This document shows positions 1,309 through 28,858 of a DNA stretch of 37,209 bases, piece by piece. The stretch is from Clostridiales bacterium DTU074. GTDB lineage: Bacteria > Bacillota > Clostridia > Caldicoprobacterales > Caldicoprobacteraceae. The stretch covers positions 1 through 37,209 of the forward strand of contig LFSE01000113.1 in assembly GCA_001513075.1 (NCBI GenBank), in the 5' to 3' direction. Positions within the stretch are counted from its first letter, which is position 1. Each line of letters starts with the position of its first letter. The notes under the pieces were generated by a model. That model saw nothing but the letters and a program-made list of their open reading frames with translations, was not told where the DNA came from and did no database searches. Both the position numbers and the translations under genes were made by a program.

Positions 1309-1324
1309 CCCCCACACCTCCAGT

Positions 1325-2161: not shown

Positions 2162-2191
2162 GATATCCTCCTTGACCCATCAATTATGTTT

Positions 2192-6349: not shown

Positions 6350-6435
6350 ACTTATCTCCTCCGTCATATGCTGTTTATGCTGCAGTATCAGTATCGTCTG
6401 TCGAATCTGGCAAAAAGTTATCGCTCATACTACTC

Positions 6436-6464
6436 AATATACTATTTTTTGTTGCCGGTTTCAA
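6436..6464 (-). promoter_or_regulatory. Sigma-A type promoter of the manA operon
   Basis: Minus strand: -35 TTGAAA (6459-6464), 17-bp spacer, -10 TATATT (6436-6441). It lies about 87 bp upstream of the manA ATG and just downstream of the VanW-gene terminator, which suits a new transcription unit. Confidence 0.65.
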
Positions 6465-6489
6465 GAAAAAAGATACAAGCTGACCTTAC

Positions 6490-6514
6490 AAAAACTCCCG
6501 GCTTTTGCCGGGAG
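6490..6514 (-). terminator. Intrinsic terminator of the VanW-family gene
   Basis: A perfect 8-bp GC-rich stem, CTCCCGGC (6495-6502) and GCCGGGAG (6507-6514), with a TTTT loop (plus-strand reading). On the minus strand the stem is followed at once by TTTTT. It sits about 60 bp after the VanW gene stop. Confidence 0.9.
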
Positions 6515-6573
6515 TACATTCATCTCCTTAACTATCTTCATGCTGTTTATTCTGATTCTTATTAGGCTTCATC

Positions 6574-9129: not shown

Positions 9130-9765
9130 TTACGAATTGTTGGCCATTCTGTAGCATAGAATATATAGGCTGTCACTCAAGTGTACATTTTCTACCACCA
9201 CATCATCAGGCAAAACCACATCTATCGGAGCAAAGTTCCAAATATTTTTTATGCCGCAATCCACCAGTAGCTCGGCCACTTCCTGAGCCTTTTCCTTAGG
9301 TGTACATATTATTCCAATGTCAATCCGGTTGTTTGCCATAAAGCTTTTCATGGTATCTATGTCAAGAATATCAATGCCGCGGATTGACATACCCACCAGC
9401 CTGGGGTTTATATCAAACAATGCCTTAATGAAAAAGCCTTCCTTTTCAAACCCGCTGTAGTTTGCCAGCGCCTGCCCTAAATTCCCTGCACCTACCACCA
9501 CCATATTATACTGCCTGTCAAGCCCTATTATCTTCTTAAGCTCTCCACATAGCTCCGGAACATTATACCCATATCCCTGTTGCCCAAAACCTCCAAAACA
9601 GTTAAAATCCTGACGTATTTGAGAGGCAGTTAACCCCATTTTTTGTCCCAATTCATTGGAAGACACCCTTTGAACACCGTTTTTTTTCATTTCGGTTATA
9701 TAACGATAATATTTGGGTAAACGACGAATGACAGCTTCGGACACCCTGCTCCTGCGTTTTGCCAT
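9130..9765 (-). CDS. rex: Redox-sensing transcriptional repressor Rex
   Basis: This 211-aa protein matches Rex in length and layout: an N-terminal winged helix (residues ~1-80, with SQIRQDFNCFGGFGQQGYGY) and a Rossmann NAD(H)-binding domain with GAGNLGQAL. Rex dimers bind DNA when the NADH/NAD+ ratio is low and are released by NADH, controlling fermentation and redox genes. The ATG has AAAGGAGGT seven to eight bases upstream. A near-consensus promoter (9812-9840) and a likely Rex operator (9782-9799) precede it, so autorepression is likely. The PRC-barrel gene follows. Confidence 0.96.
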   Translation of the reverse strand: MAKRRSRVSEAVIRRLPKYYRYITEMKKNGVQRVSSNELGQKMGLTASQIRQDFNCFGGFGQQGYGYNVPELCGELKKIIGLDRQYNMVVVGAGNLGQALANYSGFEKEGFFIKALFDINPRLVGMSIRGIDILDIDTMKSFMANNRIDIGIICTPKEKAQEVAELLVDCGIKNIWNFAPIDVVLPDDVVVENVHLSDSLYILCYRMANNS

Positions 9766-9781
9766 TCAATAACCTCCTTTA

Positions 9782-9799
9782 ACGTTTATTTTTTAACAA
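9782..9799 (-). promoter_or_regulatory. Putative Rex operator (autoregulatory)
   Basis: The 18-bp ACGTTTATTTTTTAACAA (plus strand) matches 11 of 14 defined positions of the clostridial Rex consensus TTGTTAANNNNTTAACAA, with one perfect half-site. It lies 13-30 bp downstream of the rex -10 box and just upstream of the Shine-Dalgarno, a position suited to repression. Confidence 0.6.
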
Positions 9800-9811
9800 T
9801 GTTGCACTTCT

Positions 9812-9840
9812 ATGATATCATCAATCTATCCTATAGTCAA
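9812..9840 (-). promoter_or_regulatory. rex promoter
   Basis: Minus strand: -35 TTGACT (9835-9840), 17-bp spacer, -10 TATCAT (9812-9817). It is about 50 bp upstream of the rex ATG. Confidence 0.7.
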
Positions 9841-9883
9841 CAAATAATCCAATATTTAACATTAATACCTTGTCACATTTATT

Positions 9884-9919
9884 AAAAAAGCAATGGGGAT
9901 AAAACCCCCTTGCTTTTTT
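9884..9919. terminator. Bidirectional intrinsic terminator after aconitase
   Basis: AAAAAAGCAA and a G4 run (9884-9898) pair with C4-5 and TTGCTTTTTT (9905-9919). The GC core is flanked by an A6 run on one side and a T6 run on the other, so it can terminate in either direction. Its main client is the minus-strand aconitase gene, which ends about 185 bp upstream. Confidence 0.8.
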
Positions 9920-10104
9920 ATATAAGACGAATATTCATTTTAGCCATGGCAATGTACCAATAAGCTTATATTCTTAACTGCCCAATCCTCCTTAAAATAT
10001 AAAAGGTTGGTCGTATATCACGATGTCAGGCCGCTGCCGCATCCGAGCCCATTCATCCTTACTATCTATACAATACCCCATACCCGCTTTGATTAACATA
10101 AATA

Positions 10105-12030
10105 CTATGAATTTTTTCGGGTATAATTAAGCAGTCCGCCTGCCAGGATGATCTCCTTTAAGCGGGGAGAGAGGGCAAGCTTGACATTATATTCCCTATT
10201 CTTTGTAATATTTTTAACAATTAATACATCACCCTGTCTTATCTGCTTAACCGCATCCTCAATTACCAGAGCATCCCCCATGTCAATATCATCGTAATCC
10301 TTTTCATCAGCAAAGGTCAACGGCAATATGCCGGAATTGATAAGGTTTGCCATATGGATTCGTGCAAAGGACTTTGCAATAACCCCTTTTATCCCCAGAT
10401 ACAAAGGCACCAATGCCGCATGTTCCCTGCTGGAACCCTGGCCGTAGTTATGCCCGCCTACCAAAAAGCCACCGCCTGCGCTCTTTGCACGGGCCGGAAA
10501 ATCTTTATCCACCAGTGTCAGGCAGTAATCCGCCAGATACGGTATGTTGGAGCGGTACGGAAGCAGTTTGGCACCCGACGGCATTATATGATCGGTGGTA
10601 ATGTTATCTCCCATCTTAAGCAGCACCGTACCCTCAACCCTCTCGGGCAATTCCTTATTGACCGGGAAGGGCTTTATGTTCGGACCGCGGACTACTTCCA
10701 CAGAGGCTCCATCCTCAGCCGGCGGAATGATCAGATTATCGTTGATTTCAAAGGTTTCCGGCAACTCAACAACCGGATACTCTCCCAGAGTTCTGGGATC
10801 GGTCAGTACTCCTGTTAAAGCTGAAGCGGCTGCAACTTCAGGACTTACCAAATACACCTTGGCACTGGGAGTACCGCTTCGCCCGTAAAAATTGCGGTTG
10901 AAGGTGCGCAGCGAAACGGCATTGGAGGCCGGAGCCTGTCCCATTCCAATACAAGGCCCGCAGGCACATTCCAGGATGCGGGCACCCGCAGCTATCAAAT
11001 CAGCCAATGCTCCGTTTCTCGCCAGCATTGAATATACCTGCTTGGAACCCGGAGATATTACAAGGCTTACATCCGGGTGTACCGTTTTACCTTCTAGAAT
11101 TCTGGCCACCCTCATGAGATCCAGATAGGATGAATTGGTACAGCTGCCCACAGCCACCTGATCCACCTTAATCGGGCCTACATTTCTCACGGTATCCACA
11201 TTGTCGGGGCTGTGGGGCTGGGCCACCATGGGCTCCAGCTTGCCTAAGTCAATCACAATCTCTTCATCATAGTAAGCATCATCATCGGCTGTAAGAGGCA
11301 CCCATTCATCTTCACGCATCTGGGCTTTCATAAAGGCCCGGGTCACTTCATCGCTGGGAAAAATGGAGGTGGTTGCTCCCAGTTCGGCACCCATATTGGT
11401 TATGGTAGCCCTTTCGGGTACCGTCAGGGTAGAAACGCCCTCGCCGGCATACTCAATTATCTTCCCTACTCCGCCCTTAACGGTCATTATTCTTAAAAGC
11501 TCGAGAATTACATCTTTTGCCGTCACCCAGGGATTGAGCTTACCCTTAAGCACAACCCTGCACACCTTGGGCATGGTCAGATAATATGGGCCTCCACCCA
11601 TTGCTACAGCCACATCCAGTCCACCGGCTCCAATAGCCAGCATTCCTATTCCGCCCGCTGTTGGAGTATGGCTGTCGGAACCTAGCAATGTCCAGCCCGG
11701 CCTTGCAAAACGCTCCAGATGAACCTGATGGCAGATTCCGTTGCCCGGTTTGGAGAAATAAATACCGTACTTTGACGTCACGGTCTGTATATATTTATGA
11801 TCATCGGCATTCTCAAAACCCGTCTGAAGGGTATTGTGATCTACGTATGCCACCGACTTTTTTGTTCTAACCCGCGGAATTCCCATGGCCTCAAACTGAA
11901 GGTAAGCCATTGTACCGGTTGAATCCTGAGTCAGGGTCTGATCGATTGAAATGGCAATCTCCTCACCATGCTGCATCCTGCCGGATACAAGATGGTTTTC
12001 TATTATTTTTTGTACTATGTTCTTTCCCAA
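10105..12030 (-). CDS. Aconitate hydratase (short clostridial type)
   Basis: This 641-aa enzyme interconverts citrate and isocitrate. It belongs to the shorter aconitase subfamily rather than the ~890-aa AcnA or AcnB. It contains LLGSDSHTPTAGGIGMLAIGAGG, the [4Fe-4S] ligand cysteines in GSCTNSS and ECACGPCIGMGQ, and the C-terminal swivel domain with GHNYGQGSSREHAALVP. The start is TTG with AAGGGGG seven bases upstream. A consensus promoter (TTGACA-17-TACAAT) lies at 12102-12130 and a terminator at 9884-9919, so it is monocistronic. No other TCA-cycle gene is in the window. A 3-isopropylmalate dehydratase identity is unlikely, since the swivel domain is fused and no leu genes are nearby. Confidence 0.93.
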   Translation of the reverse strand: MGKNIVQKIIENHLVSGRMQHGEEIAISIDQTLTQDSTGTMAYLQFEAMGIPRVRTKKSVAYVDHNTLQTGFENADDHKYIQTVTSKYGIYFSKPGNGICHQVHLERFARPGWTLLGSDSHTPTAGGIGMLAIGAGGLDVAVAMGGGPYYLTMPKVCRVVLKGKLNPWVTAKDVILELLRIMTVKGGVGKIIEYAGEGVSTLTVPERATITNMGAELGATTSIFPSDEVTRAFMKAQMREDEWVPLTADDDAYYDEEIVIDLGKLEPMVAQPHSPDNVDTVRNVGPIKVDQVAVGSCTNSSYLDLMRVARILEGKTVHPDVSLVISPGSKQVYSMLARNGALADLIAAGARILECACGPCIGMGQAPASNAVSLRTFNRNFYGRSGTPSAKVYLVSPEVAAASALTGVLTDPRTLGEYPVVELPETFEINDNLIIPPAEDGASVEVVRGPNIKPFPVNKELPERVEGTVLLKMGDNITTDHIMPSGAKLLPYRSNIPYLADYCLTLVDKDFPARAKSAGGGFLVGGHNYGQGSSREHAALVPLYLGIKGVIAKSFARIHMANLINSGILPLTFADEKDYDDIDMGDALVIEDAVKQIRQGDVLIVKNITKNREYNVKLALSPRLKEIILAGGLLNYTRKNS

Positions 12031-15490: not shown

Positions 15491-16474
15491 TTACTTAAAC
15501 TCCACTTCTCTCTTTTCCTTATGGGCAATATAGGAAGCCTCCAGCAATTCTGTTAACTTTGTGCCTTCCTCCAGATCATACCTTATTGGGGTCCCCAATG
15601 TTATTGCATCAACCCATTGTTTTAGCGGCGGATCCAGGGGCTTGGGCAGATCCTGGGGAGAAACCCAGCCTTTAAATTTCTCAGGCATTTTTTCGGATAT
15701 CAGCTTAACATCCCTGCCTATTGCTATAAGGGTGCCTTCTGTCCCGTATATTTCCAGTGAGCCGGGTGTCCTATATGTAACTAAACTTGTTTCAACAATT
15801 GCAACGGCTTTGTTCTTAAACTCTATGGCACACACAGCATTGTCTTCCACGGCTCTGCCGGTAAAGTAGTTATACATGGATGTTATCCTTGCTGGCTTGC
15901 CCAAAAACCAACTTGCTAGGTACATCGGATGGCATCCCAGATCCATCATGGCGCCGCCGCCGGCCATCTTCTCATCATACCAGTAGTCGGGAAGCCAATC
16001 CCTCAAAGACCCATCATGTCCGTTTCTGATCCTTACCAGAGTAATATCTCCAAGGATTCCCTCATCAATTAACTTCTTGGCATAGAGATTCTGAGGAGCC
16101 GTTCGGGCAGGGAAGGAGATGCAGAACTTAACGCCTGCCTTCCTAACCGCCTCGGAAATCCTGTTACATTCCTCGACAGTCAATGCCATTGCTTTTTCGG
16201 TGAAGATGTGCTTGCCGGCATTGGCTGCAGCCACCATAACATCGGCATGCATGCTGGTCGGCGCATCCACAACGACACCGTCCACATCATCTCTTTTCAG
16301 CAGGGTATCCAAATCTTCCTCGAAATCTGCCTTTAAGTCCTCAGCCCATTTTCTTCCTCGCTCTGGCTCTTCATCCCATACAGCAGTAATCTGTACATTA
16401 TCCAAACCCTGTAAAAACTTTGCATAGCCCTCTGCATGTACATGCCATTTGCTTAGCATTGCTACTCGTAACAT
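15491..16474 (-). CDS. Gfo/Idh/MocA family oxidoreductase, divergent
   Basis: The product is 327 aa with an N-terminal Rossmann fold (~1-120) and a C-terminal alpha/beta substrate domain. The catalytic region is FTEKAMAL (Lys94; Ala replaces the usual Pro of EKP) and MDLGCHPMYLASWFLG (Asp178, His182). The usual GxGxxG dinucleotide loop is absent: the N-terminus reads LRVAMLSKWHVHAEGY. Family members oxidise or reduce sugar hydroxyl/keto groups with NAD(P). Whether this one still binds the cofactor classically is uncertain. The ATG has GAGGAGG seven bases upstream. It is the last gene of the operon, 73 bp after the glycyl radical enzyme gene, and may act on its product or substrate. Confidence 0.88.
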   Translation of the reverse strand: MLRVAMLSKWHVHAEGYAKFLQGLDNVQITAVWDEEPERGRKWAEDLKADFEEDLDTLLKRDDVDGVVVDAPTSMHADVMVAAANAGKHIFTEKAMALTVEECNRISEAVRKAGVKFCISFPARTAPQNLYAKKLIDEGILGDITLVRIRNGHDGSLRDWLPDYWYDEKMAGGGAMMDLGCHPMYLASWFLGKPARITSMYNYFTGRAVEDNAVCAIEFKNKAVAIVETSLVTYRTPGSLEIYGTEGTLIAIGRDVKLISEKMPEKFKGWVSPQDLPKPLDPPLKQWVDAITLGTPIRYDLEEGTKLTELLEASYIAHKEKREVEFK

Positions 16475-16547: not shown

Positions 16548-18746
16548 TTATGCGGTTAAAATTCTGTCCACAACCAATTTCCTGAATTCGGGTGTCAACA
16601 GACAGAAGTAAGCCGTAAAGCCCGTTACCCTGACAACGAGATCCGGATATTTGGAAGGATCTTTATTTGCTTCCAATATCTGATCTTTGTCGATAATATT
16701 TATATTTAGCAATGTAGCTCCGTTGTCCATAATCGTCATTATATAGTCCGATATTTTTTGTATGGCCTCATCATCCTTGGCAATGCCTGGGTCTAACTCC
16801 AACTGTATCGGCGCGGTGTTACCATAACCCGGCTGAACTGCGCATATTATATTGGACATGGCGGTTACGGCTCCGTCCTTTCTAAACTGGGGATGGGGAT
16901 TACAGCCATGGTTAATTGGTTCGTACGCCTTTCTTCCATTAGGAGTTGCACCAACAACTTTGCCCAGCTGTATGGTGTTGGACCAGGAAAACCATCCTGG
17001 TATAAACTTATAGGGGTAATATTGCTCCATGGAGTTTACATCATCGGTAAATGCCTCTGATATCCTCACACCCCATTTATCCCCCAATGAGTTCCCGCCA
17101 CCATATCTTTCGCTTGCAGCCAGCATAAGGCGGATATATTCTCCTTCAACACCTTCAAAATTGTTTTTCAGCGTTTCATAAAGCTTTTGCCAGCTGATTC
17201 GTTTTTCCCTTTCTACCCGCTGCTCCAGTGCGGCAAAGGAATCGGCCACTGTTGCAATCCCGGTTCCATCAATACACATATTATAGTACTGAGCACCGCC
17301 GTCCACCATATCACGGCCTTTTTCAACAGGGCCATGGCATATAAGGTTCAAAACAAGTTCAGGCTGGTTTTTAACCTGATTCTTCAGATGAAAATCAATC
17401 CCGGCTGCCGTAATCTCAACCGCTTTTCTTTGATGTTTTCTATAATAGTCCCACAAAGTTTCAACCGTAGGATTTTTCTCCTTTTCCATCATTTCGTCAA
17501 GGGCGATTTCGAATATCTTAGCGCAATTGATCTTTACGCAATCATTTAAAGTATATTCCAAACCGGGAAGGCTCATCCAATGACAGCCTACCGCCACACG
17601 CTGCCTGGCAATTTCAAGGGGATATCCCTTTCTCATAAAACCTTCGCATAAGGCTTTGTCTCCCGAAAACCTCGGCCAACCCTTTTTGTTCTTAAAAAGA
17701 TAGTAAACTGCCTTGTTGATGAACCTTTTATCGGTTTTCTCATGCACCCTGACCGTAATATTACAGGACGAATTGAGCCAATCCGCAGCTTCAAGTATCA
17801 GATAGGAAAAATATGTGGTCATATCATTTCCATGCTCATCCAAACCGCCTATCTGGTAATAATGAGGGTCATTCAAGAGAAGGCATGCAATATAGTATTT
17901 AGCTTCATCCTCACCGCTTATCCTGCCCGCAGAAAGATCCGCTTCATAATACGGTCTCAATAATTCATCCAGCTGTCCGCCGGCACCGTCCCTATTATAC
18001 GTTCTGCTGGCCATGTTAAACCAGCAAATCCATTGGCAGGCTTCCCTTAAAGTTCGCGGCGGCTCGGTTATTATCCATTCATTTACTTTTAACATTTGCT
18101 GTAGGTTTTCTTTAAGATCCGGATGTTTCTCCTGTTCTATAGCCTCCTTGGTTACCTCGATCGTGTTTGCGATCCATTGTTGTATGCCTTTTACCACCAT
18201 TACCTCAGCATCATAGAATTCATCATGTCCCAGATTTTTTAAGCGGTATTCTTCAAGTTTCCTTAAAATGCCACCCCATCCCAAGGAAAGGCCTATACGA
18301 TAGTCCCCGCCAAAATGTGAGTCAGCCCCAATACCGGATACAATACCGTATTTTTCAATGCCCGGCTTTAAATGATCGTAGTTCAGTTCGGGTTTCCATC
18401 GTTTTCTCCCCTTCAGCCAGGGCATGCAGAACATCCAGCGACAGGTAAATGCATCAACGGGATCTATAAAAATCGGATGCGTAGCCATCAGCTTGTGGAA
18501 ATTTTTACTCCAACCTTCATATCCATACCAAGAGCCATCGGGATGGTTGGGAATGCATTCCCAAGTATATTCTTCGGGTGGTAAGATTGAACCATAGTCA
18601 TCTCCGTCCTGGTATGGTCTTATCCCCATTTTTTCTTTAGTTTGCTCCAGCTTACGCTCGCGCAGTATACGAACGCGTTCGCGGTAGTCCAGTTGGGTAT
18701 CGGGATCGATCCTGTTAACAAGTACCATTTTATATAAGGTAGACAT
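16548..18746 (-). CDS. Glycyl radical enzyme (pyruvate formate-lyase-like), unknown substrate
   Basis: This 732-aa protein has the GRE layout. A PFL-like ten-stranded barrel domain includes GGQLDELLRPYYEAD (~257-270). The cysteine loop AVGCHWMSLPGLEYTLND carries the thiyl Cys388. TPNGRKAYEPINHG (601-614) follows, and the C-terminal glycyl radical loop RVTGFTAYF has Gly709 (consensus RVxG[FY]). In characterised eliminases and decarboxylases (glycerol dehydratase, CutC, IslA, HpdB) the Cys is followed by x-Glu; PFL has Cys-Cys. Here it is Cys-His-Trp, so no characterised reaction can be assigned. It requires the adjacent activating enzyme and is oxygen-sensitive. Neighbours are sugar transport and dehydrogenase genes, with no microcompartment shell genes, suggesting radical chemistry on a sugar or sugar acid. 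The Shine-Dalgarno (AAAGGATG) is about 11 bases from the ATG. Confidence 0.92.
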   Translation of the reverse strand: MSTLYKMVLVNRIDPDTQLDYRERVRILRERKLEQTKEKMGIRPYQDGDDYGSILPPEEYTWECIPNHPDGSWYGYEGWSKNFHKLMATHPIFIDPVDAFTCRWMFCMPWLKGRKRWKPELNYDHLKPGIEKYGIVSGIGADSHFGGDYRIGLSLGWGGILRKLEEYRLKNLGHDEFYDAEVMVVKGIQQWIANTIEVTKEAIEQEKHPDLKENLQQMLKVNEWIITEPPRTLREACQWICWFNMASRTYNRDGAGGQLDELLRPYYEADLSAGRISGEDEAKYYIACLLLNDPHYYQIGGLDEHGNDMTTYFSYLILEAADWLNSSCNITVRVHEKTDKRFINKAVYYLFKNKKGWPRFSGDKALCEGFMRKGYPLEIARQRVAVGCHWMSLPGLEYTLNDCVKINCAKIFEIALDEMMEKEKNPTVETLWDYYRKHQRKAVEITAAGIDFHLKNQVKNQPELVLNLICHGPVEKGRDMVDGGAQYYNMCIDGTGIATVADSFAALEQRVEREKRISWQKLYETLKNNFEGVEGEYIRLMLAASERYGGGNSLGDKWGVRISEAFTDDVNSMEQYYPYKFIPGWFSWSNTIQLGKVVGATPNGRKAYEPINHGCNPHPQFRKDGAVTAMSNIICAVQPGYGNTAPIQLELDPGIAKDDEAIQKISDYIMTIMDNGATLLNINIIDKDQILEANKDPSKYPDLVVRVTGFTAYFCLLTPEFRKLVVDRILTA

Positions 18747-18803: not shown

Positions 18804-19703
18804 CTAACCAATCCTCACTGCCAATCCGATTTCCCGCACTTCCCTTGCCAATGCCTCAATCCGTTCTTCTTTTAAAGGCCTAACTCCCTTAAATGCATTA
18901 CTCAAGCCCAAACCGTTATATTTGCTCTCCCCAAGAGGATTAAAATTCAACAGCTCGTAATACATAAGTCCCTTTGCACCTTTTAGCAGATTCGCTATTT
19001 CGCATATTGTTTCCTGGTTATCATTTACTCCGGGAATAATCGGAGTTCTCGCTATAATGGGCTTATCCAGTTCAATCAGCCGCTCCACATTCTGCAATAT
19101 TTTCCTGTTGGATACACCGGTCCATTTCTTGTGGAGCTGTTCATCCACCAATTTAATATCGAACATGATAAGATCAAGCAGCGGCAACATTTCTTCCATC
19201 AGTTTCCAGTCGTAATTCATATTGGTTTCCACTGCCGTTGAAATCCCCAAAGCCTTTGCTGTAGTCAGGATGGAGGCAAGAAACTCCGCCTGGCAAAAAG
19301 CCTCACCACCGGATACGGTAATGCCGCCACCCGAATGCTCATAATAGCTCTTATCCTGAATTACTTCATCCATTATCTCCTCAGCAGTCATAATACGGCC
19401 CGAAATGGTGATTGCACCTGAAAAGCAGACATCCGCACATCGGCCGCAGACAACACACAGGCTGCGATCGAATATTATACTACCATCAATAATCCTTCGT
19501 GCCTGATTCGTACATACCTCCACGCATTTTCCGCACCCTATGCATTTTTCCGGATATAGTATAAGCTCCGGTTTGGCTGATATGGTTTCAGGATTGTGAC
19601 ACCAAGCGCATCGCATGTTGCATCCTTTCAAAAATATCGTCGTCCTTATCCCCGGTCCGTCGTGCAGTGAAAAGCGCTGGATATCTGTTACAATGCCTTG
19701 CAT
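18804..19703 (-). CDS. Glycyl radical enzyme activating enzyme (radical SAM)
   Basis: The product is about 299 aa. A PFL-activase type radical SAM core carries KGCNMRCAWC (Cys28/32/35 bind the SAM-cleaving [4Fe-4S]; the spacing is CX3CX2C). An inserted double ferredoxin cluster domain follows, with cysteines at 54/57/60/64 and 83/86/89/93. This insert is typical of activases for non-PFL GREs such as glycerol dehydratase, CutC and HpdB. GGGITVSGGE is the SAM-contact motif. It abstracts hydrogen from the GRE glycine (predicted Gly709 of the next gene). The start at 19703 is chosen because AGGAGG lies six bases upstream; the ORF start at 19745 has no ribosome site. It precedes the GRE gene by 57 bp. 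Confidence 0.95.
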   Translation of the reverse strand: MQGIVTDIQRFSLHDGPGIRTTIFLKGCNMRCAWCHNPETISAKPELILYPEKCIGCGKCVEVCTNQARRIIDGSIIFDRSLCVVCGRCADVCFSGAITISGRIMTAEEIMDEVIQDKSYYEHSGGGITVSGGEAFCQAEFLASILTTAKALGISTAVETNMNYDWKLMEEMLPLLDLIMFDIKLVDEQLHKKWTGVSNRKILQNVERLIELDKPIIARTPIIPGVNDNQETICEIANLLKGAKGLMYYELLNFNPLGESKYNGLGLSNAFKGVRPLKEERIEALAREVREIGLAVRIG

Positions 19704-19956
19704 ATATATCCTCCTAAATGCATATATTGGCCCCCTACATAACATTGAAAAATTCTATAGAGGCCTGAACCGCTTCCTGTATACCAAACTCCCGGCAAGG
19801 AGTGTTCAGGCCTCATGTAGTTATGCCGCCGGTTCAGTAAGGCCGGAGCATATATTCAAATAGTAAGGCCAAATACTTTTTTGTAAATTCAAATCCTGTC
19901 CGAGGCCCCTCGGCTCCATCTGTTTTGTATATATTCTGAAATTTGATCAACATACA
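19704..19956 (-). other. Structured intercistronic region (possible RNA element)
   Basis: This 253-bp spacer inside the operon has several GC-rich stems. GAGGCCTGAAC (19760-19770) pairs with GTTCAGGCCTC (19804-19814), a perfect 11 bp; ACTCC/GGAGT (19788-19792 and 19799-19803) nests inside. CCGAGGCCCCTCGG (19900-19913) is another hairpin. There is a further CCGG-based stem near 19830-19846, and GGCCTTACT occurs twice on the minus strand. No U-tract immediately follows the big stem. It may be a processing/stability element, attenuator or small RNA; it matches no riboswitch I recognise. Confidence 0.5.
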
Positions 19957-21051
19957 TTAGAATTCGGGTATCTCTATCTCGACCTCTCTTTTTAGTTTTG
20001 CAGATCTGTAAATTCCGTCAATTATTGCCTGGTTGTATATGATTTCCTCGCCCGGTATCGGAGCAGGCCGACCTTCCTTAATTGCATCGCAAAAATCACG
20101 AACCTTTGCTGCAAAAACATCGACTTTCTGAGGACTTGAATAGGCATCAAATGGATGGGACGGTAATATATAGCTATCAACTTGCATTCCGTTTACATCG
20201 GTAAATAGCATAACGCGAGATGGCTTGTTTGCATAATCAAAGCTGTTGATGATCTTTATTCCGCCCTCCGTTCCCAGCCAAAGGGTATCGCCGAGGGAAT
20301 CGGCGTGCATTGCCCATGCCTGCTTAAATACGAAGGTTATGTCCCCTTCCAGCCTAATAAAGGCAACGGAAAAATCATCCACATTGAATTTTTCAGGTTC
20401 CGGCCAATATTTGGGATTTTTGCCGAAATAATCGGTAGCAACCGCCGATACCGTTAACGGTTTGGGATAGCCTACCGCATGGAGGCACTCATCGATGGAA
20501 TAGCAGCCGATGTCCCCAAGACATCCAAATCCTGCCTTATCGCCTTCTATAAAAGTACCCCCGGGTATACCCCTTCTTCGTCCGCCTCCACTTTGTATGT
20601 AATAAACCTTTCCGATAGTTCCGGAGCGAATGATCTCATCTACCTTCTGCCGCATATAGCTATACCTGGGCTGAAATCCTATGGTAAGAATTTTGTTGGC
20701 TTTTTTGGCCGCTTTCACCATATCAACCGCTTCCTGTAACGTAAATGACATGGGCTTTTCGCACTGAACATGCAGTCCGGCTTCCAAAGCCATAATGGCG
20801 CATTCAGCATGGGTGGTGTTGTAAGTGCATATGGTTACTCCATCCATTTCAACGTTTTTTATCAGTTCTTCTGCACTTTCAAAAGCCTGAGCGTTTGGCA
20901 GATCCCATTTTTCAAAAAATGCCTTTGCCTTTCCCGGTACTATATCGGCGCCTCCGACAATTTCTACGTCATCAAATTGCTTATAAGCAGCCATGTGAGC
21001 ATGAGCTATGCCGCCCGTCCCGATGATTCCTATGCGCAGTTTTCTTTCCAT
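19957..21051 (-). CDS. Gfo/Idh/MocA family sugar dehydrogenase
   Basis: The 364-aa protein has a classical NAD(P)-binding loop, GIIGTGGIAHAHM (~8-20), the EKP motif with Lys99 (CEKPMSF), and the catalytic region GDIGCYSIDECLHAVG with Asp180, Tyr184 and Asp187. Tyr replaces the more common His, as in the glucose-fructose oxidoreductase and dihydrodiol/xylose dehydrogenase branches. It should oxidise or reduce a hydroxyl of a sugar or cyclitol in the cytoplasm. AGGAGG lies eight bases before the ATG. It sits between the GH42-like gene and the activase gene, so it could form the keto-sugar that feeds, or results from, the glycyl radical step. The substrate is not predictable. Confidence 0.92.
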   Translation of the reverse strand: MERKLRIGIIGTGGIAHAHMAAYKQFDDVEIVGGADIVPGKAKAFFEKWDLPNAQAFESAEELIKNVEMDGVTICTYNTTHAECAIMALEAGLHVQCEKPMSFTLQEAVDMVKAAKKANKILTIGFQPRYSYMRQKVDEIIRSGTIGKVYYIQSGGGRRRGIPGGTFIEGDKAGFGCLGDIGCYSIDECLHAVGYPKPLTVSAVATDYFGKNPKYWPEPEKFNVDDFSVAFIRLEGDITFVFKQAWAMHADSLGDTLWLGTEGGIKIINSFDYANKPSRVMLFTDVNGMQVDSYILPSHPFDAYSSPQKVDVFAAKVRDFCDAIKEGRPAPIPGEEIIYNQAIIDGIYRSAKLKREVEIEIPEF

Positions 21052-21187: not shown

Positions 21188-23383
21188 TTATTCACCCGTC
21201 AAAATGATCCTTATTCCATCGGGATTATTGTCATAGAAAACCACAACAGTATTGCTTGCGTCATCCCACTCGTGTTTAATATCAACCACCTGATTATCAC
21301 AATAAGCCTTTACGCAGGTCACTTTTTCGGTTGAATAGATTCGCGCAACGCCGGGAACTCTCTCCGGCCCCTTGGCCATAAAATCTATTGTTAATTTACC
21401 GCTTCCGCATTCTTTATCATTGCGCGTGACCTTCAGCTCATCTATTCTTGAAGAAGCGGCGATCAATTTGGGGGCAGTACTGGCTGACAGGCTGTTTAAA
21501 TCATACAGGAAGGCTAATTCTCCTGCTTTTATCTCCACACCGTTTCGGATAGTGAGCTTTGCATCAAAAAGATCCACATAGCTTCCTTCCAATATAACCG
21601 GCTGTTCATCCACCGATTCGTCCATCACTGCCACAATAGTATACGGTCCGCGATGGAGAATAAAATGATTTTTGGGCTTCCACTCAAGCTCGGGATACCC
21701 CGACATTTTCAGTACATTCTTCACGACATCCCTCAAATCCTGCGCTTTATGCCTGTCATAGGCACATTCAACGGGATTTACATTAAGATATGCTAATATT
21801 CCCTTCCCTACCCGCTTGATAAGGCTTTCGCCATTTTCCATAGCTTTGATTTCATCGGATTTAACACCCAGGCATTCGAAAAGGTGTTCCCTTGGTGAGA
21901 CATATTTGCGTCGGCCTTCGGTCCACCAATTTCTGATGTTGTGGTAAGGATCCGAGTCATCGCCCACATAGATCAGAATTCCTCCGTCCAATACCCACTG
22001 GGCAATGGCATTATGAATGTAGGGTGATTCGGGCTTCATAAATTCGTAGCTCAATAACAACACGCGATAATCGTTCAGATAATCCGGGAAACGCGCAATA
22101 TTGTCCAACTGCACCGGTCTTACTGCAACGCCGTGTTTTAGCAACGGAAGGGCCAAACCGTAGAACTCGTTCCATTCCACTAGTTTTTTCCTCAGATCCG
22201 GCTCATTGACACCGTCAGCTCCTAAATCCATATAAAATCTCTGGAACATGCCGGAATCAGCCAGCAATAAGCCTACTTCCAGATTGTCGCGACCCCAGAC
22301 CGTTTTATCCTGCTCCATATCGCGAAGTGTATTCATAATCGTTAACAGAACACATGCATAATCGGAAGGAATACCTTCCCGTCCGGTCCCGTCCTGTTTA
22401 GGATATTCCCGGTTGAATATGCGGTTGGGCCACGGCGCTACTTCGTATCTTGATACCTTGGGATGGAACAAGGAAGCCACCACGGTTTTAAAATAATTTG
22501 TCCTGTAATCCTCCCATGTATGATTGGGATTGTCCTCTATCGGGTCATGGAGAAACCACATACGCCGATCTGAACCCCGGGTCAGCTCCTGCATTATGCC
22601 GTATTCCAGAAAAGCCGTCTCAAAAGTCCTTTCTTTTCTTACACCTTCGTATACATTGGGAGTTCTGGAAGTGCCGGTCCAGATCTGTGCTATATAACCG
22701 TCAACTCCCGGTATGTCCAGCAATCTTGATTCGGGGCTAACAATCCTCCATTGGGTATAGTTAATCAGGCTGTGAGTTGGAACATAAAAGCGCAGATCCC
22801 TTTGATACTTTACCTTAGCATACTCTTTTAAAGAACCGCATAGCCTGTCAAGACATCGGGCATATAGATAGGCTTTTAATTTGGAAGCCCTGTATTGATT
22901 GTCGGGAGATTCATGAGGAGGCCTCCACGGCTCTTTATAATAGATTTCCCATTCCCGCTTAAACGCCTCGGAATAACCCCCGTCCGCCCAGAATTCCGGC
23001 TCTTCCAGGTGTATGGCTTCCACACCCGTGTCCACGGCCACCTTTATCTTTTCTATAAGATATTCTGCAAAGGATATTGTAGGCACCATATAGGGGACGT
23101 CCTTGCCATGCAGGATGTATGAGCCATCTCTTCGCTTTTGTGCCTCATCCCAGTGGTTCCGTCCGTCAAATTCACCGTACAGATAATCCTGATACTGGCC
23201 CCAGGCAATACCGGTCATAAGATGAACTCTATATCCCCTCTCCCGCCATTTTTCAATCCGTTGAGGCATGGTTTCATCCACGCCGTATACCATTACAAAA
23301 TCGGTCTGCAAGTCAATGGATGGATTATAGGGTGCTCGCTCCTGGAAACCGGTAAGTTCACGTTCTCTTCCTTTCACTTTCAT
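21188..23383 (-). CDS. GH42-like putative glycoside hydrolase, unknown specificity
   Basis: This 731-aa protein has no signal peptide or membrane segment, so it acts on imported substrate. The N-terminal ~400 residues look like a TIM barrel, with an acidic strand-end EAIHLEEPEFWADGGY (Glu127, Glu128, Glu130) that could hold a catalytic acid. The next ~200 residues (DYRVLLLSYEFMKPESPYIH, then WVLDGGILIYVGDD) resemble the glutaminase-like trimerisation domain of GH42 enzymes. The C-terminus is beta-rich. The A/B/C order and length are like GH42, but I cannot place it in a named family. It follows the binding-protein gene by about 230 bp and precedes the dehydrogenase gene. Shine-Dalgarno AAGGAG is only three bases from the ATG; a GTG two codons downstream is an alternative. 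Confidence 0.7.
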   Translation of the reverse strand: MKVKGRERELTGFQERAPYNPSIDLQTDFVMVYGVDETMPQRIEKWRERGYRVHLMTGIAWGQYQDYLYGEFDGRNHWDEAQKRRDGSYILHGKDVPYMVPTISFAEYLIEKIKVAVDTGVEAIHLEEPEFWADGGYSEAFKREWEIYYKEPWRPPHESPDNQYRASKLKAYLYARCLDRLCGSLKEYAKVKYQRDLRFYVPTHSLINYTQWRIVSPESRLLDIPGVDGYIAQIWTGTSRTPNVYEGVRKERTFETAFLEYGIMQELTRGSDRRMWFLHDPIEDNPNHTWEDYRTNYFKTVVASLFHPKVSRYEVAPWPNRIFNREYPKQDGTGREGIPSDYACVLLTIMNTLRDMEQDKTVWGRDNLEVGLLLADSGMFQRFYMDLGADGVNEPDLRKKLVEWNEFYGLALPLLKHGVAVRPVQLDNIARFPDYLNDYRVLLLSYEFMKPESPYIHNAIAQWVLDGGILIYVGDDSDPYHNIRNWWTEGRRKYVSPREHLFECLGVKSDEIKAMENGESLIKRVGKGILAYLNVNPVECAYDRHKAQDLRDVVKNVLKMSGYPELEWKPKNHFILHRGPYTIVAVMDESVDEQPVILEGSYVDLFDAKLTIRNGVEIKAGELAFLYDLNSLSASTAPKLIAASSRIDELKVTRNDKECGSGKLTIDFMAKGPERVPGVARIYSTEKVTCVKAYCDNQVVDIKHEWDDASNTVVVFYDNNPDGIRIILTGE

Positions 23384-23610: not shown

Positions 23611-25338
23611 TTACCAGCCAACGTCATCGCGCTCTGCGGCCTTCTCCGCTACCCACTGTGTGAGCTCTTCAAGCCCGGCTTGTCTGTATTTTTCACGTAT
23701 ATCGTTGAGTATCTTCAATGCTTCTTCGTCGGTTGATGCGAAGCAAGCCTTGCGGAATTCTTGCTCGTAATCAAGAGTGGACACTGCATCCCTGTACTCA
23801 TTATACTTGGGCCAATCCCGCTCAAGGTAGTTTGCACTTACCTTGTCAATAAACACAATGGGTACCTTCGCAATATACTCATCCTGCCACTTATCAAATA
23901 TGGTCTTGTCCTCCTCAGGTGTTGGCCATAGGCTCTTCCTGGAGTCAGCACCTATAAAGTTCCCGAGGTATCCGATTCCGGCATCCCTTGCGGCAGTCGG
24001 ATCTTCATCCATCTTTTGCTTCCATTCGGGAATCCATTTAGGCCTGCCATTTTCCATGGTGTAGTGCTCGCCTTCGATACCCCATGAAGCCAGCAGCCAA
24101 CCCTCTTCGCTGTTACAGAAGTTGATAAAGCGCAATACAGCTTCGGCTTTGTCGGTTGTAGCACTCAGGAACATTACCGGGAAGCCGGAACGCCCCTTCT
24201 TCTCAACCTGTGTAGCAATATTCCCGCTCTTGTTCTTGAATGGACCTAACAATTCGTACTTCATCTCAGGATTGGTCTGATACAACGTCTGCCTAAAATG
24301 ACCCATTCCGCTTTGAGCACCGAATACCGCTATCTTACCAACAGCCATCTTTTCCTTGGCCATGGTGTCGGTATTGCTGAATGCTTCAGGATCAAACAGA
24401 CCTTCCTTAATAAGCTTTCTCATGAACATGAGCTTCTCTTCTTCATCCTTGGAGAATATCCAGTGGATGATCTTGCCATCTTCCTCACGGTACGATGATA
24501 TATTATAATCGGACCAGGACTTCAGAAACTCACTGTAAGACCAACCATTGTGCCAGGTACCGGCAGGAATCACCGGTTTTCCGTTGATGTCAGTAAAGTT
24601 TCCATTCTTAATCTTGACCAGAAGGTCGTACAGCTTCTCTGAGCTGTCGATTTCCTCAGGTTTTACACCTAATTCTTTCAGAATATCTCCTCTGGCATAT
24701 ACGCCATAAGCCCAGTTAGTCACGTCTTCCGGATTGTCTCCCGGTGTTTGCTGAGGAATCAGATAAATATTGCCCTCGTAATCAGGATGGAACAGGTCAA
24801 ATTCTTTAAAGTCTCTTGCAACGCCAATTTCGTATAGTTTCTCAATGTTGGGATACTTGCCGCTCTCCAGGTAGTCATTCAGTGCGAGCAGCATTCCTTC
24901 GGTAGCCGCCTTCTTTATGACTGCACCTTCTCCGCCTGTCGTACTCCAGTAAGGAGCATTTACAAAATCAGGCATTACGCCGGAAGCAAACATGGTGTTC
25001 AGCTTCTCGGTCTCACTGGTGGTGATAAACTCGGCTTTAAGGGTAACGCCGGTCCTCTCCCTAATCCTTTGAGCCACCGGATTGTTCACCATATCCTGAG
25101 GGAATCCTCCGGCTCCCCCGTTCCAGCAATGGAGGAAAGTAACTTCAACTTCTTCAATCGGCTCCTCAGCTGGTGTCTCTTCTTCATCAGCGCCTTCGCT
25201 CTCAGTGCCGCTTGGTTCTTCCTCCTTTACTTCGTCTGGTTTCGTCTCCTTTTGAGCACCGCAGCCTGCTACAACTGAAACAAACAACAGAAGTGCCACC
25301 AAAAGGGAGAACAGCTTCACCCATTGGGTTTTGTTCAT
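23611..25338 (-). CDS. Extracellular solute-binding lipoprotein of a sugar ABC transporter (LplA type)
   Basis: The product is about 575 aa. A lipoprotein signal peptide (basic MNKTQWVK, hydrophobic LFSLLVALLLFVSVV, lipobox VVAGC with Cys26) is followed by an acidic Glu/Pro/Thr linker, then a large two-lobe binding domain starting VTFLHCWNGGAGG. The length and divergence match the LplA/YtcQ class that serves oligosaccharides or uronate-rich glycans with two permeases and a shared ATPase. The ATG at 25338 has GAGGAGG seven bases upstream; an in-frame TTG at 25356 is less likely. It follows the permease genes, with a small stem-loop between. No ATPase gene is in the operon, so a housekeeping MsmX-like ATPase is presumably used. 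Confidence 0.93.
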   Translation of the reverse strand: MNKTQWVKLFSLLVALLLFVSVVAGCGAQKETKPDEVKEEEPSGTESEGADEEETPAEEPIEEVEVTFLHCWNGGAGGFPQDMVNNPVAQRIRERTGVTLKAEFITTSETEKLNTMFASGVMPDFVNAPYWSTTGGEGAVIKKAATEGMLLALNDYLESGKYPNIEKLYEIGVARDFKEFDLFHPDYEGNIYLIPQQTPGDNPEDVTNWAYGVYARGDILKELGVKPEEIDSSEKLYDLLVKIKNGNFTDINGKPVIPAGTWHNGWSYSEFLKSWSDYNISSYREEDGKIIHWIFSKDEEEKLMFMRKLIKEGLFDPEAFSNTDTMAKEKMAVGKIAVFGAQSGMGHFRQTLYQTNPEMKYELLGPFKNKSGNIATQVEKKGRSGFPVMFLSATTDKAEAVLRFINFCNSEEGWLLASWGIEGEHYTMENGRPKWIPEWKQKMDEDPTAARDAGIGYLGNFIGADSRKSLWPTPEEDKTIFDKWQDEYIAKVPIVFIDKVSANYLERDWPKYNEYRDAVSTLDYEQEFRKACFASTDEEALKILNDIREKYRQAGLEELTQWVAEKAAERDDVGW

Positions 25339-25377
25339 TTTTTTTCCTCCTCTCAAGGATATTAATTGTTTTATTTT

Positions 25378-25441: not shown

Positions 25442-26362
25442 CTATTCCTTTAATGACCCAAGCATAACCCCTTGAACAAAGTACCTCTGCAGAAATGGAT
25501 ATATGAATATAATGGGAGTAACTATGATAACAAGAAATGACATCCTCAAAGACTCCGGCGTAATACCGGTCTGTCTTATCCTCTCCAATTCAATATTTAC
25601 CTGCAGTATTTGTGACCCTGAATCAGAGGTGGTGCTACTCTCAAAGGTTGCCTCTGCTATCAGTTTGCGAAGAAGGGTGGAAGCAGGTATCAGATTCTGA
25701 TCCTGTATAAAGAACTCACCTGTAAACCAGTCATTCCAGCAACCTACTCCTACAAACAATGCTATGGTAGCCAACACTGGCATCGACAGAGGCAGCATTA
25801 TCCTCCAGAATATGGTGTTTTCACTTGCACCATCGATCCTTGCAGACTCGGACAAACTATCGGGTATTCCGGTAAAATAAGTCCTTACGATGACAGCATT
25901 GAAAAAGCTATATAGGGACGGAATTATTAAAACCCAATAAGAGTTCATAAGTCCCAACTGCCTATACAAAACGTAGGTGGGGATCAATCCCCCACTGAAT
26001 AGGGTAGTAAAGAAGAAGAAAAAGACAATATATTTTCTCCCAGGTAGCCCCTTTCTGGCAAGGCCGTAAGCCAACATGGCCGTCAGCAGGACTGACAATA
26101 CAGTAACCAGCAAAGTTCTGGATACCGAGATTAAAAATGAACTGGTAATCAACGGATGCTGAAAGGCCTTCTCGTAGTTACGCAGCGTGAACTCCCTTGG
26201 CCAGAGGTATATTCCTCCCTTCATGGCGTCGTATCCATCGTTAAAGGACAGAACCAATATATATATAAATGGATACAGAGTAGAGATACAAAACAATATA
26301 AGAATGGTATAATTTATGATCATGTATATTCTATCAGCCAGCGTTAGTTTCTTTACACTCAT
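25442..26362 (-). CDS. Carbohydrate ABC transporter permease (LplC type)
   Basis: The 306-aa protein has about six membrane segments and the binding-protein-dependent permease EAA-type loop (SESARIDGASENTIFWRIMLPLS, around residues 170-195) that docks the ATPase. The N-terminal LADRIYMIINYTILILFC and the C-terminal RYFVQGVMLGSLKE are typical of the LplC/YtcP class. It forms a heterodimeric channel with the upstream permease. The ATG has GGAGG eight bases upstream. It lies 31 bp downstream of the partner permease gene. The substrate is set by the binding protein and is unknown. Confidence 0.94.
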   Translation of the reverse strand: MSVKKLTLADRIYMIINYTILILFCISTLYPFIYILVLSFNDGYDAMKGGIYLWPREFTLRNYEKAFQHPLITSSFLISVSRTLLVTVLSVLLTAMLAYGLARKGLPGRKYIVFFFFFTTLFSGGLIPTYVLYRQLGLMNSYWVLIIPSLYSFFNAVIVRTYFTGIPDSLSESARIDGASENTIFWRIMLPLSMPVLATIALFVGVGCWNDWFTGEFFIQDQNLIPASTLLRKLIAEATFESSTTSDSGSQILQVNIELERIRQTGITPESLRMSFLVIIVTPIIFIYPFLQRYFVQGVMLGSLKE

Positions 26363-26393: not shown

Positions 26394-27365
26394 TCACCAG
26401 AGTGAAATTTCGGTATATTTTCGGGAAATATTATTAACAGTTACAATTAAAATCATTGATATAACGGACTTAAACAAGCCTATAGCTGTAGCATACGAAA
26501 ACTGGCCCTGACGAATTCCCTTCTTCAATACATAGGTATCCAATATTTCGGAAACATGCAACGTGCTCGGAGTTTGCATCAGATATATCTGATCAAAACC
26601 AGCGTTCAATATGCCGCTGAGCGACAAAATCAGGAGTATACCGATGGTGGGAGCCAGACAGGGTAGGGTGATCTTGAATATCTTACTCCAACGGCCGGCA
26701 CCATCTATCTCTGCCGCTTCGTATAATGTGGGATCAATATTTGTCAATGCGGCAAGGTATATGATTGAACCCCAGCCTACTCCTTTCCAAATATCGCTTA
26801 TTACTACAAGGGGATAGAAGAGAGAGGGCATTCCCATGAAGAATATAGGTTCCATCCCAAGCTGCATTCTTAAATCATTCACAAACCCAGCATTTGGAGA
26901 CAGTATCTTCTGTAACAGCGTTACTACTACTACCCACGAAACGAAGTGAGGGAGGTAGGAAATGGTCTGTACCACCCGTTTAAATTTAGTATGCACCACT
27001 TCGTTAAGCATAAGGGCCAGTACTATAGGAGCCGGGAAACCAAATAGCAGCTTTAATACGCTGATTGACAACGTGTTCCTTATGGTTTCATAAAAGCTGG
27101 AATCAGCAAGAAAAGCTTTAAAATACTTTAACCCGGCCCATGGACTCCCTAATATACCCAAATTATACTTGAAATCCTTAAAGGCCAGAAGAACACCGTA
27201 CATAGGATAATATGCAAAGATCAGATACCATATAATTGCAGGAAGTATAAACAAATACACGTGCCTGAAATACCATATCCTTTGAATGGCCTTCTTTCTA
27301 TTCCGTGCGGCCACAGGAGGGGATTCGGCAACTCCGCTAACATTGTTCTTTACCTTTCCCATCAT
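26394..27365 (-). CDS. Carbohydrate ABC transporter permease (LplB type)
   Basis: The 323-aa protein has six predicted membrane segments. Characteristic LplB phrases are YYPMYGVLLAFKDFKYNLGI early, SYLPHFVSWVVV in the middle, and the EAA loop LYEAAEIDGAGRWSKIFKIT for ATPase contact. The N-terminus is a soluble basic stretch. It is the first gene of the transporter/glycyl-radical operon and pairs with the downstream LplC-type permease. AGGAGGG lies ten bases before the ATG, with a second ATG directly after it as an alternative start. The promoter lies at 27555-27583, leaving an untranslated leader of about 180 nt. Confidence 0.94.
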   Translation of the reverse strand: MMGKVKNNVSGVAESPPVAARNRKKAIQRIWYFRHVYLFILPAIIWYLIFAYYPMYGVLLAFKDFKYNLGILGSPWAGLKYFKAFLADSSFYETIRNTLSISVLKLLFGFPAPIVLALMLNEVVHTKFKRVVQTISYLPHFVSWVVVVTLLQKILSPNAGFVNDLRMQLGMEPIFFMGMPSLFYPLVVISDIWKGVGWGSIIYLAALTNIDPTLYEAAEIDGAGRWSKIFKITLPCLAPTIGILLILSLSGILNAGFDQIYLMQTPSTLHVSEILDTYVLKKGIRQGQFSYATAIGLFKSVISMILIVTVNNISRKYTEISLW

Positions 27366-27554: not shown

Positions 27555-27583
27555 AGTATATCATACGTATTTTTCTTTGTCAA
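27555..27583 (-). promoter_or_regulatory. Promoter of the transporter/glycyl-radical operon with operator half-site
   Basis: Minus strand: -35 TTGACA (27578-27583), 17-bp spacer, -10 TATACT (27555-27560). The -10 sits in TGATATACT, the same octamer-plus-T that begins the palindromic operators in front of the regulator gene; the second half of the palindrome is not conserved here. Confidence 0.82.
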
Positions 27584-27724: not shown

Positions 27725-28858
27725 TCATGAACCGGCATATCTGCATATATCCGTCGATTCCTTAACAATCAATTTAACAGGTATTGTTATCTTTTTTATT
27801 TGCGTTCTTTTATCATTCTCAAGCATTTCAATAACAATCTCAGCTGCAGTTTTGCCGATCATATAAAAATCCTGCTCTACCGTGGTCAGCATAATGCCCA
27901 CATGCTCCAGCACATCAAGATTGTCAAAGCCTATCAAAGATATCTCCTTGGGAATCTTAACCCCCATCCCCATAAATGCCTTTTGTACTGTTACGGCTAC
28001 ATAGTCGTTTTCTGCAATTACAGCCGTTACCTTTTTCTTCAATAATTTTTCAAGCACCGACTTTATGTAGTCCGTTTTTTCGACTTCGTTTTTCAAATAT
28101 CTTATTTTAGAGGCCAAGCCCAATACAATGTGATCCTCGTTTATTTGAAGCCCATGCTCTATCAGGGCCGAACAATAGCCAAAAAATCGTTGTCGAACCG
28201 TACTGATGGACTCAATATCAGCAGTTGCAACAAAGGCAATATTTTTATGCCCCAATTCAACAAGATGGGTAACTGCCTGATATGCCCCGTCAAAGTTATC
28301 ACAGGTGACATAACTTACGGGTATGGACTCATAATGCTTATCTATGGTAACAATGGGATAACCGGTGATGTGCATTGTATATAACAGATCAAAATTGGCC
28401 CTGGATATGGGATAGTAAATAATCCCGCTTATTCCGTTTTTTGGAAGATTAATTAGCAGCTCCCTTTCATGTTTCACATCTTCTGTAATGTGGAAGGTCA
28501 GATAGTAACCCTTTTGGTTGATGGCATCAGTTGCACCCTTAACATAATCCATGTTTCTGCCCTGCATACTTGTAGCTGGTATAATCATGGATATTACATT
28601 CTTTGTTCCAGGCTCATTTACTTTCTTCTGGTATAGTCCCAATACAAAGCTACCCTGACCCCTCTTCCTGTATATAAGCCCTGCTCTTTCCAACTCTTCC
28701 AAAGCTCTCTTTGCTGTGATCCTGCTTACACCGAATATCTCTGCCATCTCCATCTCGGTAGGAAGCTGATCGTCAGGTAATAGCTCTTTATTGATTATCT
28801 TTTGCCTATAATGCTCAAATATCTGCATATATAACGGTTTCTTTTCCTCGTTTGCCAT
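27725..28858 (-). CDS. GntR/LacI chimeric transcriptional regulator (AraR-like)
   Basis: The product is 377 aa. A GntR winged helix at residues ~5-75 (LPTEMEMAEIFGVSRITAKR, then RKRGQGSFV) is joined to a LacI/periplasmic-binding-protein effector domain (~85-375; HLVELGHKNIAFVA, LIGFDNLDVLEHVGIMLTTV). This arrangement defines the AraR-like family, sugar-responsive repressors released by mono- or disaccharides. The ATG has GAGGAG five bases upstream. It lies directly upstream of, and in the same direction as, the sugar operon. Two 18-bp palindromes in its own promoter region suggest autoregulation and control of the operon. The inducer is unknown. Confidence 0.93.
   Translation of the reverse strand: MANEEKKPLYMQIFEHYRQKIINKELLPDDQLPTEMEMAEIFGVSRITAKRALEELERAGLIYRKRGQGSFVLGLYQKKVNEPGTKNVISMIIPATSMQGRNMDYVKGATDAINQKGYYLTFHITEDVKHERELLINLPKNGISGIIYYPISRANFDLLYTMHITGYPIVTIDKHYESIPVSYVTCDNFDGAYQAVTHLVELGHKNIAFVATADIESISTVRQRFFGYCSALIEHGLQINEDHIVLGLASKIRYLKNEVEKTDYIKSVLEKLLKKKVTAVIAENDYVAVTVQKAFMGMGVKIPKEISLIGFDNLDVLEHVGIMLTTVEQDFYMIGKTAAEIVIEMLENDKRTQIKKITIPVKLIVKESTDICRYAGS

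Follow-up and report, generated by a model that had tools for sequence, protein, structure and literature searches.

The Cys-x-Glu (CXE) motif of the thiyl-cysteine loop is treated as the mark of glycyl radical enzyme (GRE) eliminases. The window analysed here, i.e. the whole stretch of 37,209 nucleotides of contig LFSE01000113.1 from Clostridiales bacterium DTU074, holds a GRE gene in which tryptophan occupies the place of this glutamate, and the locus raises the question whether such a protein can be an active enzyme and, if so, on what substrate and by which chemistry it would act. The gene is a minus-strand open reading frame for 732 aa that begins with ATG and is free of internal stops (Table 1). 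Its translation agrees with what an earlier note had read from the sequence: Cys388-His389-Trp390 stands in place of Cys-x-Glu, the RVTGF radical loop with Gly709 is intact, and the residue before Cys388 is Gly387, so that the double cysteine of PFL is missing. Residue numbers count from the ATG at 18746; the annotated start is perhaps six residues early because most homologues begin near residue 7-10, and with Met7 as the actual start the numbers would shift by about 6.

Table 1. Features of the window that bear on the C-x-W enzyme and its operon.
Feature	Position	Strand	Basis
C-x-W family glycyl radical enzyme, 732 aa	16548..18746	-	PF02901, PF01228; AF2 model; fold match
Cys388-His389-Trp390: thiyl Cys, H/N/S-variable residue, invariant Trp at the CXE Glu position	17577..17585	-	Translation, alignments
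Gly709, radical site in RVTGF	16620..16622	-	Translation; invariant in alignments A1, A2
His144, equivalent of glycerol dehydratase His164 / HypD His160	18315..18317	-	Alignments; invariant 57/57
Lys405 (clade: K/R) at the HypD Tyr450 position	17532..17534	-	Alignments
Radical SAM GRE activase, ferredoxin-type domains	18804..19745	-	Pfam, NCBIfam; homologues within 4 kb of GRE in 69/82 loci
Gfo/Idh/MocA sugar dehydrogenase, last gene of run	15491..16474	-	Pfam/NCBIfam; close homologues adjoin GREs in L062, L048
Gfo/Idh/MocA sugar dehydrogenase	19957..21051	-	Pfam/NCBIfam; 71% identical homologue 3' of GRE in L048
731-aa protein co-travelling with GRE	21188..23383	-	No Pfam or PDB match
Extracellular sugar-type solute-binding protein	23611..25356	-	PF01547
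ABC permease, LplC type	25442..26362	-	PF00528; 74% identical copy at G023 GRE locus
ABC permease, LplB type	26394..27365	-	PF00528; 83% identical copy at G023 GRE locus
Promoter-like site TTGACA-17-TATACT before permease gene	27555..27583	-	Consensus match 11/12 only
GntR-type HTH + Peripla_BP_3 sugar-binding regulator	27725..28858	-	Pfam; 70% identical regulator at G002 CNW GRE locus

Both GRE domains score above their Pfam cut-offs (PF02901, 336.4 bits; PF01228, 49.2 bits), and the cysteine loop aligns without gaps to PflD and glycerol dehydratase (..VGC-VE-LSIPG.. versus ..VGC-HW-MSLPG..), bearing out the kinship with dehydratase-type GREs that had been proposed from its flanks. Compared with the PDB, the AF2 model (pLDDT 90.1, pTM 0.91) is closest to PflD 8yjo (Z 36.0, 2.6 A over 674 residues), followed by Streptococcus PflD in a structure with 1,5-anhydromannitol-6-phosphate (Z 35.5), and it matches glycerol dehydratase at Z 35.2; CutC also superposes on the model, X-succinate synthases match it at Z 28-32, and PFL folds lie further away (Z 27-30). 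The PflD/YbiW 1,5-anhydrohexitol-6-phosphate GREs (8yjo, 8id0, 8id7), whose ligand is a ring sugar alcohol, are also the closest in sequence (8yjo, E 6e-53) and have the His144 and Asp402 positions in common with the C-x-W protein, but they differ in having CVE with its glutamate and Met at the position of Lys405, and identity is about 23%.

In spite of this likeness in fold, the protein reaches no NCBIfam equivalog cut-off: it scores 259 vs 678 bits with the glycerol dehydratase/PFL2-3 model (TIGR01774), 230.5 vs 1109 bits with the PflD-type model (PRK09983), 194 vs 1100 bits with HypD (NF043068), 165 vs 1050 bits with CutC and 71 vs 994 bits with PFL (TIGR01255). The same models are matched by all 12 members of alignment A1, which are spread over the family. 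Identity with any named NCBIfam GRE, including HypD, CutC, the DHPS dehydratases and the indoleacetate and hydroxyphenylacetate decarboxylases, was rejected because the scores lie below every cut-off, and C-x-W proteins risk being labelled 'formate C-acetyltransferase' or 'glycerol dehydratase', names that the scores do not support.

A PFL-like enzyme could be imagined that cleaves a C-C bond of a keto-sugar delivered by the Gfo/Idh dehydrogenases, which are frequent neighbours of these genes; moreover, position 681 is Asn in the family and Gln in the other GREs sampled, and PFL has Asn at the equivalent position. Given the missing double cysteine, the low score of the PFL model, PFL folds at Z 27-30 versus Z 36 for PflD, and an operon in the window in which no CoA-handling genes were noticed, we regard C-C cleavage as very improbable.

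Is the tryptophan a peculiarity of one gene? When 85,000 species genomes were scanned from pattern seeds, 416 relatives emerged, of which 80 loci were kept, and C-[H/N/S]-W is found in 76 of the 76 family copies read from these loci and the window (H in 44, N in 26 and S in 6); one of the two scan patterns included the motif itself, so that this set is partly selected, although the CSW members do not match that pattern. Whole-protein and profile searches are free of this bias, and each readable clade match that they returned is C[HN]W. The whole-protein search, covering 99 related genomes, delineates a discrete group at 40-70% identity, all readable members of which are C-H-W or C-N-W, before identity drops to about 30%, and the profile search, covering 398 genomes of the phylum, separates the clade at 1017-1294 bits from all others at 320 bits or less. 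Trp occupies position 390 in every clade member aligned (57/57) and in 0/24 aligned GREs from outside the clade (E 21, Q 2, V 1). Among 67 aligned GRE rows, duplicates counted, C-x-E occurs in 40, C-x-W in 19, all of them in the clade, C-x-Q in 3, C-x-V in 3 and C-x-S in 1. In a maximum-likelihood tree, built by a quick method and carrying program flags on several long branches, the 57 C-x-W sequences lie behind one branch (SH-aLRT 100, stem of 2.73 changes per column). Their hosts are Clostridia, Bacteroidota, Planctomycetota, Verrucomicrobiota/Lentisphaerota and Spirochaetota, and the alignments hold tens of positions that are invariant in the family over these several phyla.

These data rule out that CHW is a one-off mutation or a sequencing error, and we conclude that the C-x-W GREs almost certainly form a separate family of oxygen-sensitive radical enzymes, which is widespread among anaerobic bacteria and apparently uncharacterised: in the open-access literature, no description was found of this clade, either as a sugar-operon GRE family or as a CXE-less one. 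Because the substitution spans the whole clade, the core point of the earlier note is stronger than first stated. Of the CHW motif as such, however, the tryptophan is conserved among homologues whereas position 389 varies freely within the clade, and the emphasis that had been placed on His389 is dropped. As Asn or Ser can replace it, His389 is unlikely to be catalytic and was rejected as a new catalytic base.

The CXE Glu is conserved in GRE eliminases and has been found to be essential in IslA (PMC8473560) and in HypD (PMC7077986). Its loss could therefore mean that the C-x-W proteins are degenerate, non-catalytic GREs. Such degeneration would sit badly with the retention of the cysteine, the glycine loop and the activase, with the tens of positions kept invariant over several phyla and with the location of the genes in catabolic operons, and we consider it the least credible of the explanations, being extremely improbable. 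Cys388 and Gly709 are invariant in the clade (alignments A1 and A2), and the radical SAM activase gene lies 57 bp upstream of the GRE gene in the window (PFLE_PFLC TIGR02494, 338.6 bits, cut-off 174), in keeping with the earlier suggestion that the protein can be activated. To judge from these sequence features, the C-x-W protein is very likely to be an active GRE.

Since the usual catalytic Glu is swapped for Trp in every member read, the chemistry is probably unlike that of the known relatives; the altered acid-base chemistry or different substrate suggested by the earlier note is thus a sensible reading of the clade-wide exchange. Pocket residues are assigned here from alignments only, and HypD numbering was fixed exactly by means of a HypD orthologue (L022, 1175 bits to 6vxc). 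Trans-4-hydroxy-L-proline dehydratase HypD (6vxc) has the fold in common with the C-x-W protein and differs from it at the essential Glu436, here Trp, and at Tyr450, which aligns with Lys405 and is K or R throughout the clade. HypD His160, an essential residue 2.5 A from the CXE Glu (PMC7077986), aligns with the invariant His144, which is a better catalytic candidate than His389. B12-independent glycerol dehydratase (1r8w) and 1,2-propanediol dehydratase resemble the protein in fold (Z about 35), in the length of the Cys loop and in having equivalents of His164 and Asp447, and they differ in the CVE Glu, here Trp, and in the GHS strand segment around glycerol dehydratase His281/Ser282, which is three residues shorter in the C-x-W family. 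Isethionate sulfite-lyase IslA (7kq3) has the GRE fold and an active-site tryptophan of its own, Trp374, at another position; it keeps Cys-Ile-Glu470, which it needs for activity (PMC8473560), whereas the C-x-W GRE is without the Glu. Y250, D293, Y296, Q298, R383, H613, Q648, N681, T708 and R722 are fixed throughout the clade and differ in other GREs, and further clade-specific aromatic or polar residues that are invariant or nearly so include N401 and K/R405. The value of Lys405 as a uniquely diagnostic residue is weakened by the occurrence of K or R there in a few CXE GREs.

The invariant residues also allow a different reading, in which the enzyme is an ordinary GRE eliminase with a moved base, Glu397 or Asp293 taking over from the CXE Glu in a standard ketyl-radical dehydration. 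Both residues are invariant in 57/57 clade members, Glu397 lies nine residues after the Cys, Asp293 tentatively corresponds to the position of HypD Asp339, which together with Asp278 is an essential acid/base residue of HypD (PMC7077986), and the protein has the fold and the Cys-loop register of an eliminase. In other GREs, however, position 397 holds Ser, Thr, Gln or Glu, and most of these enzymes also keep the CXE Glu, so that Glu397 is no obvious replacement base; the register of Asp293, placed by alignment, is uncertain across a length difference. We therefore hold a moved base to be rather unlikely.

On what might such an enzyme act? In the window, the GRE gene is part of a co-directional run that encodes a regulator, two ABC permeases, a solute-binding protein, the 731-aa protein, a Gfo/Idh dehydrogenase, the activase, the GRE and a second Gfo/Idh dehydrogenase; the promoter-like site before the permease gene is a possible start of the operon. 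Among 391 Clostridia-class genomes, the sole other copy of the 731-aa protein is in G023, where it (64% identity) and the same transporter (83% and 74%) flank a C-N-W GRE that adjoins genes for a carbohydrate kinase, PfkB, a class II aldolase, a zinc alcohol dehydrogenase and an aldo/keto reductase. The predicted structure of the 731-aa protein has a pLDDT of 40, too low for use; the protein is possibly an undescribed glycoside-active enzyme.

The association with sugar genes extends beyond these two operons. A sugar dehydrogenase, isomerase, cupin or sugar transporter is encoded near the GRE in 64/82 loci, many of those without sugar-type neighbours being short contigs, and sugar isomerases and epimerases are common among the neighbours. 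Two loci from different organisms, L061 and L158 (ROK regulator too), consist only of a monosaccharide-type ABC importer, an activase and a GRE. The small cupin matches PDB 3d0j and gives no functional clue because 3d0j is an uncharacterised protein.

Several loci, spread over different phyla, point to mannosides. The own genome of the window encodes a paralogous C-N-W GRE (G000:C48, L116, 7644-9800, 41% identity); 49 bp downstream of the paralogue lies a complete GH38 alpha-mannosidase gene (4581-7595), and four further loci (L125, L037, L068, L070) have GH38 no more than 4 kb from the GRE. GH92 occurs within 4 kb in four Bacteroidota loci, two of which carry SusC/SusD-like genes as assigned by reading open reading frames; GH130 is encoded near the GRE in L113, L123/L052 and L159, an MGH1-like protein in L059 and in L063, in the latter slightly below the Pfam cut-off, and 20 loci encode a divergent ManA-like protein. 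These counts are neighbourhood evidence obtained by searching only for candidate families with simple ORF calls and no enrichment control, and a recognisable mannosidase is lacking from the window's own operon. The window also encodes a mannose-6-phosphate isomerase of type I (ManA, 5273-6367); the gene lies about 9 kb away from the GRE operon and appears to be separate from it.

Other loci contain rhamnose genes, GH106, GH28, a NagA-like amidohydrolase or TRAP transporters. In Puteibacter caeruleilacunae (L071, 825-7886), an inositol operon lies directly upstream of an AraC-activase-GRE-cupin-RhaT unit, with IolD, MMSDH/IolA-type and IolG models matched above cut-off and an IolE-like protein below; myo-inositol was rejected as a general substrate because no other locus has homologues of the iolD or iolA of L071. 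Given these varied neighbourhoods, the substrate may differ between subclades. Combining the operon in the window with the other loci, we suggest that the substrate is likely to be a carbohydrate and probably an unphosphorylated sugar or glycoside. Manno-configured sugars or mannosides are the leading candidates, and the chance that the substrate is manno-configured we put just short of even.

Combining the pocket assignments with the gene neighbourhoods, we propose the following scheme. The neighbouring radical SAM activase would place a radical on Gly709, the parts required being present; by homology, the radical would pass to Cys388, and the thiyl would take a hydrogen atom from a C-H group that neighbours a hydroxyl in the bound sugar. 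Trp390 would probably serve as a hydrophobic platform under the sugar ring rather than as a base, His144, the HypD-type partner of the missing Glu, would be left as the likely acid/base, and Asp402 and Lys/Arg405 would bind hydroxyls or an acidic group. The substrate radical would most likely lose a C-O substituent, as water or alcohol, and then regain a hydrogen atom. We put forward the C-[HNS]-W proteins as a so far uncharacterised family of GREs in carbohydrate catabolism in which C-O cleavage proceeds with Trp390 as platform and His144 as acid/base, a proposal that may equally well be right or wrong; elimination, as opposed to epimerisation or C-C cleavage, is likewise evenly poised.

The same abstraction step could also belong to a radical epimerase or isomerase of sugars: with the Glu gone, the substrate radical would not be pushed to a ketyl, the leaving group would stay, and hydrogen would be returned to the other face or to another carbon. 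The base that drives elimination is indeed missing, the operons of importer, activase and GRE without dedicated downstream enzymes (L061, L158) fit a one-step conversion to an ordinary sugar, and sugar isomerases and epimerases are frequent neighbours. Against this, a second hydrogen donor conserved throughout the clade was not found, Cys288 being invariant in A2 whereas the deeper branches of A1 do not consistently keep it; GREs are not known to epimerise, and non-radical epimerases handle free sugars easily. We consider such an epimerase or isomerase distinctly unlikely. A bolder formulation, in which the Trp platform replaces the base in a reaction of the intact sugar that would be new to GREs, either epimerisation or isomerisation of a manno-sugar or cleavage of a glycoside with loss of its C1 substituent, is on balance unlikely. 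A clade of this breadth, with Trp always in place of the Glu and its genes in sugar operons, would imply a so far overlooked radical reaction by which carbohydrates are degraded anaerobically, in animal gut microbiomes as well.

The C-x-W clade constitutes a natural experiment on the roles of the CXE Glu and of the His that pairs with it. A second CXE-less group is formed by C-V-V GREs outside the clade (L021, L142, L154), which have Glu at the HypD His160/His144 position, so that both residues can change together; to judge from the alignments, the Glu may have been exchanged between the Cys loop and the His144 position in this group, unlike in the C-x-W family, which keeps His at 144. C-x-Q GREs (CNQ, CSQ, CVQ) are encoded at L003 (G000:C71), which belongs to the window's own genome, and at L031 and L137. 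A natural departure from the canonical GRE catalytic residues is also seen in the aminoacyl radical enzymes, Ala/Ser/Thr variants found largely in MAGs, which change the radical Gly (PMC11528403), whereas the C-x-W family keeps Gly709 and changes the Cys-loop base. A GRE homologue at L148 (G700:C12:139578-141455), in which Thr replaces the radical Gly (RVATYS) and the Cys loop reads C-N-S, resembles the threonyl radical enzymes described there (PMC11528403). Finally, one contig (L084) carries both a C-x-W GRE at 9449-11662 and a C-V-E GRE at 1147-3291, with an activase gene near each.
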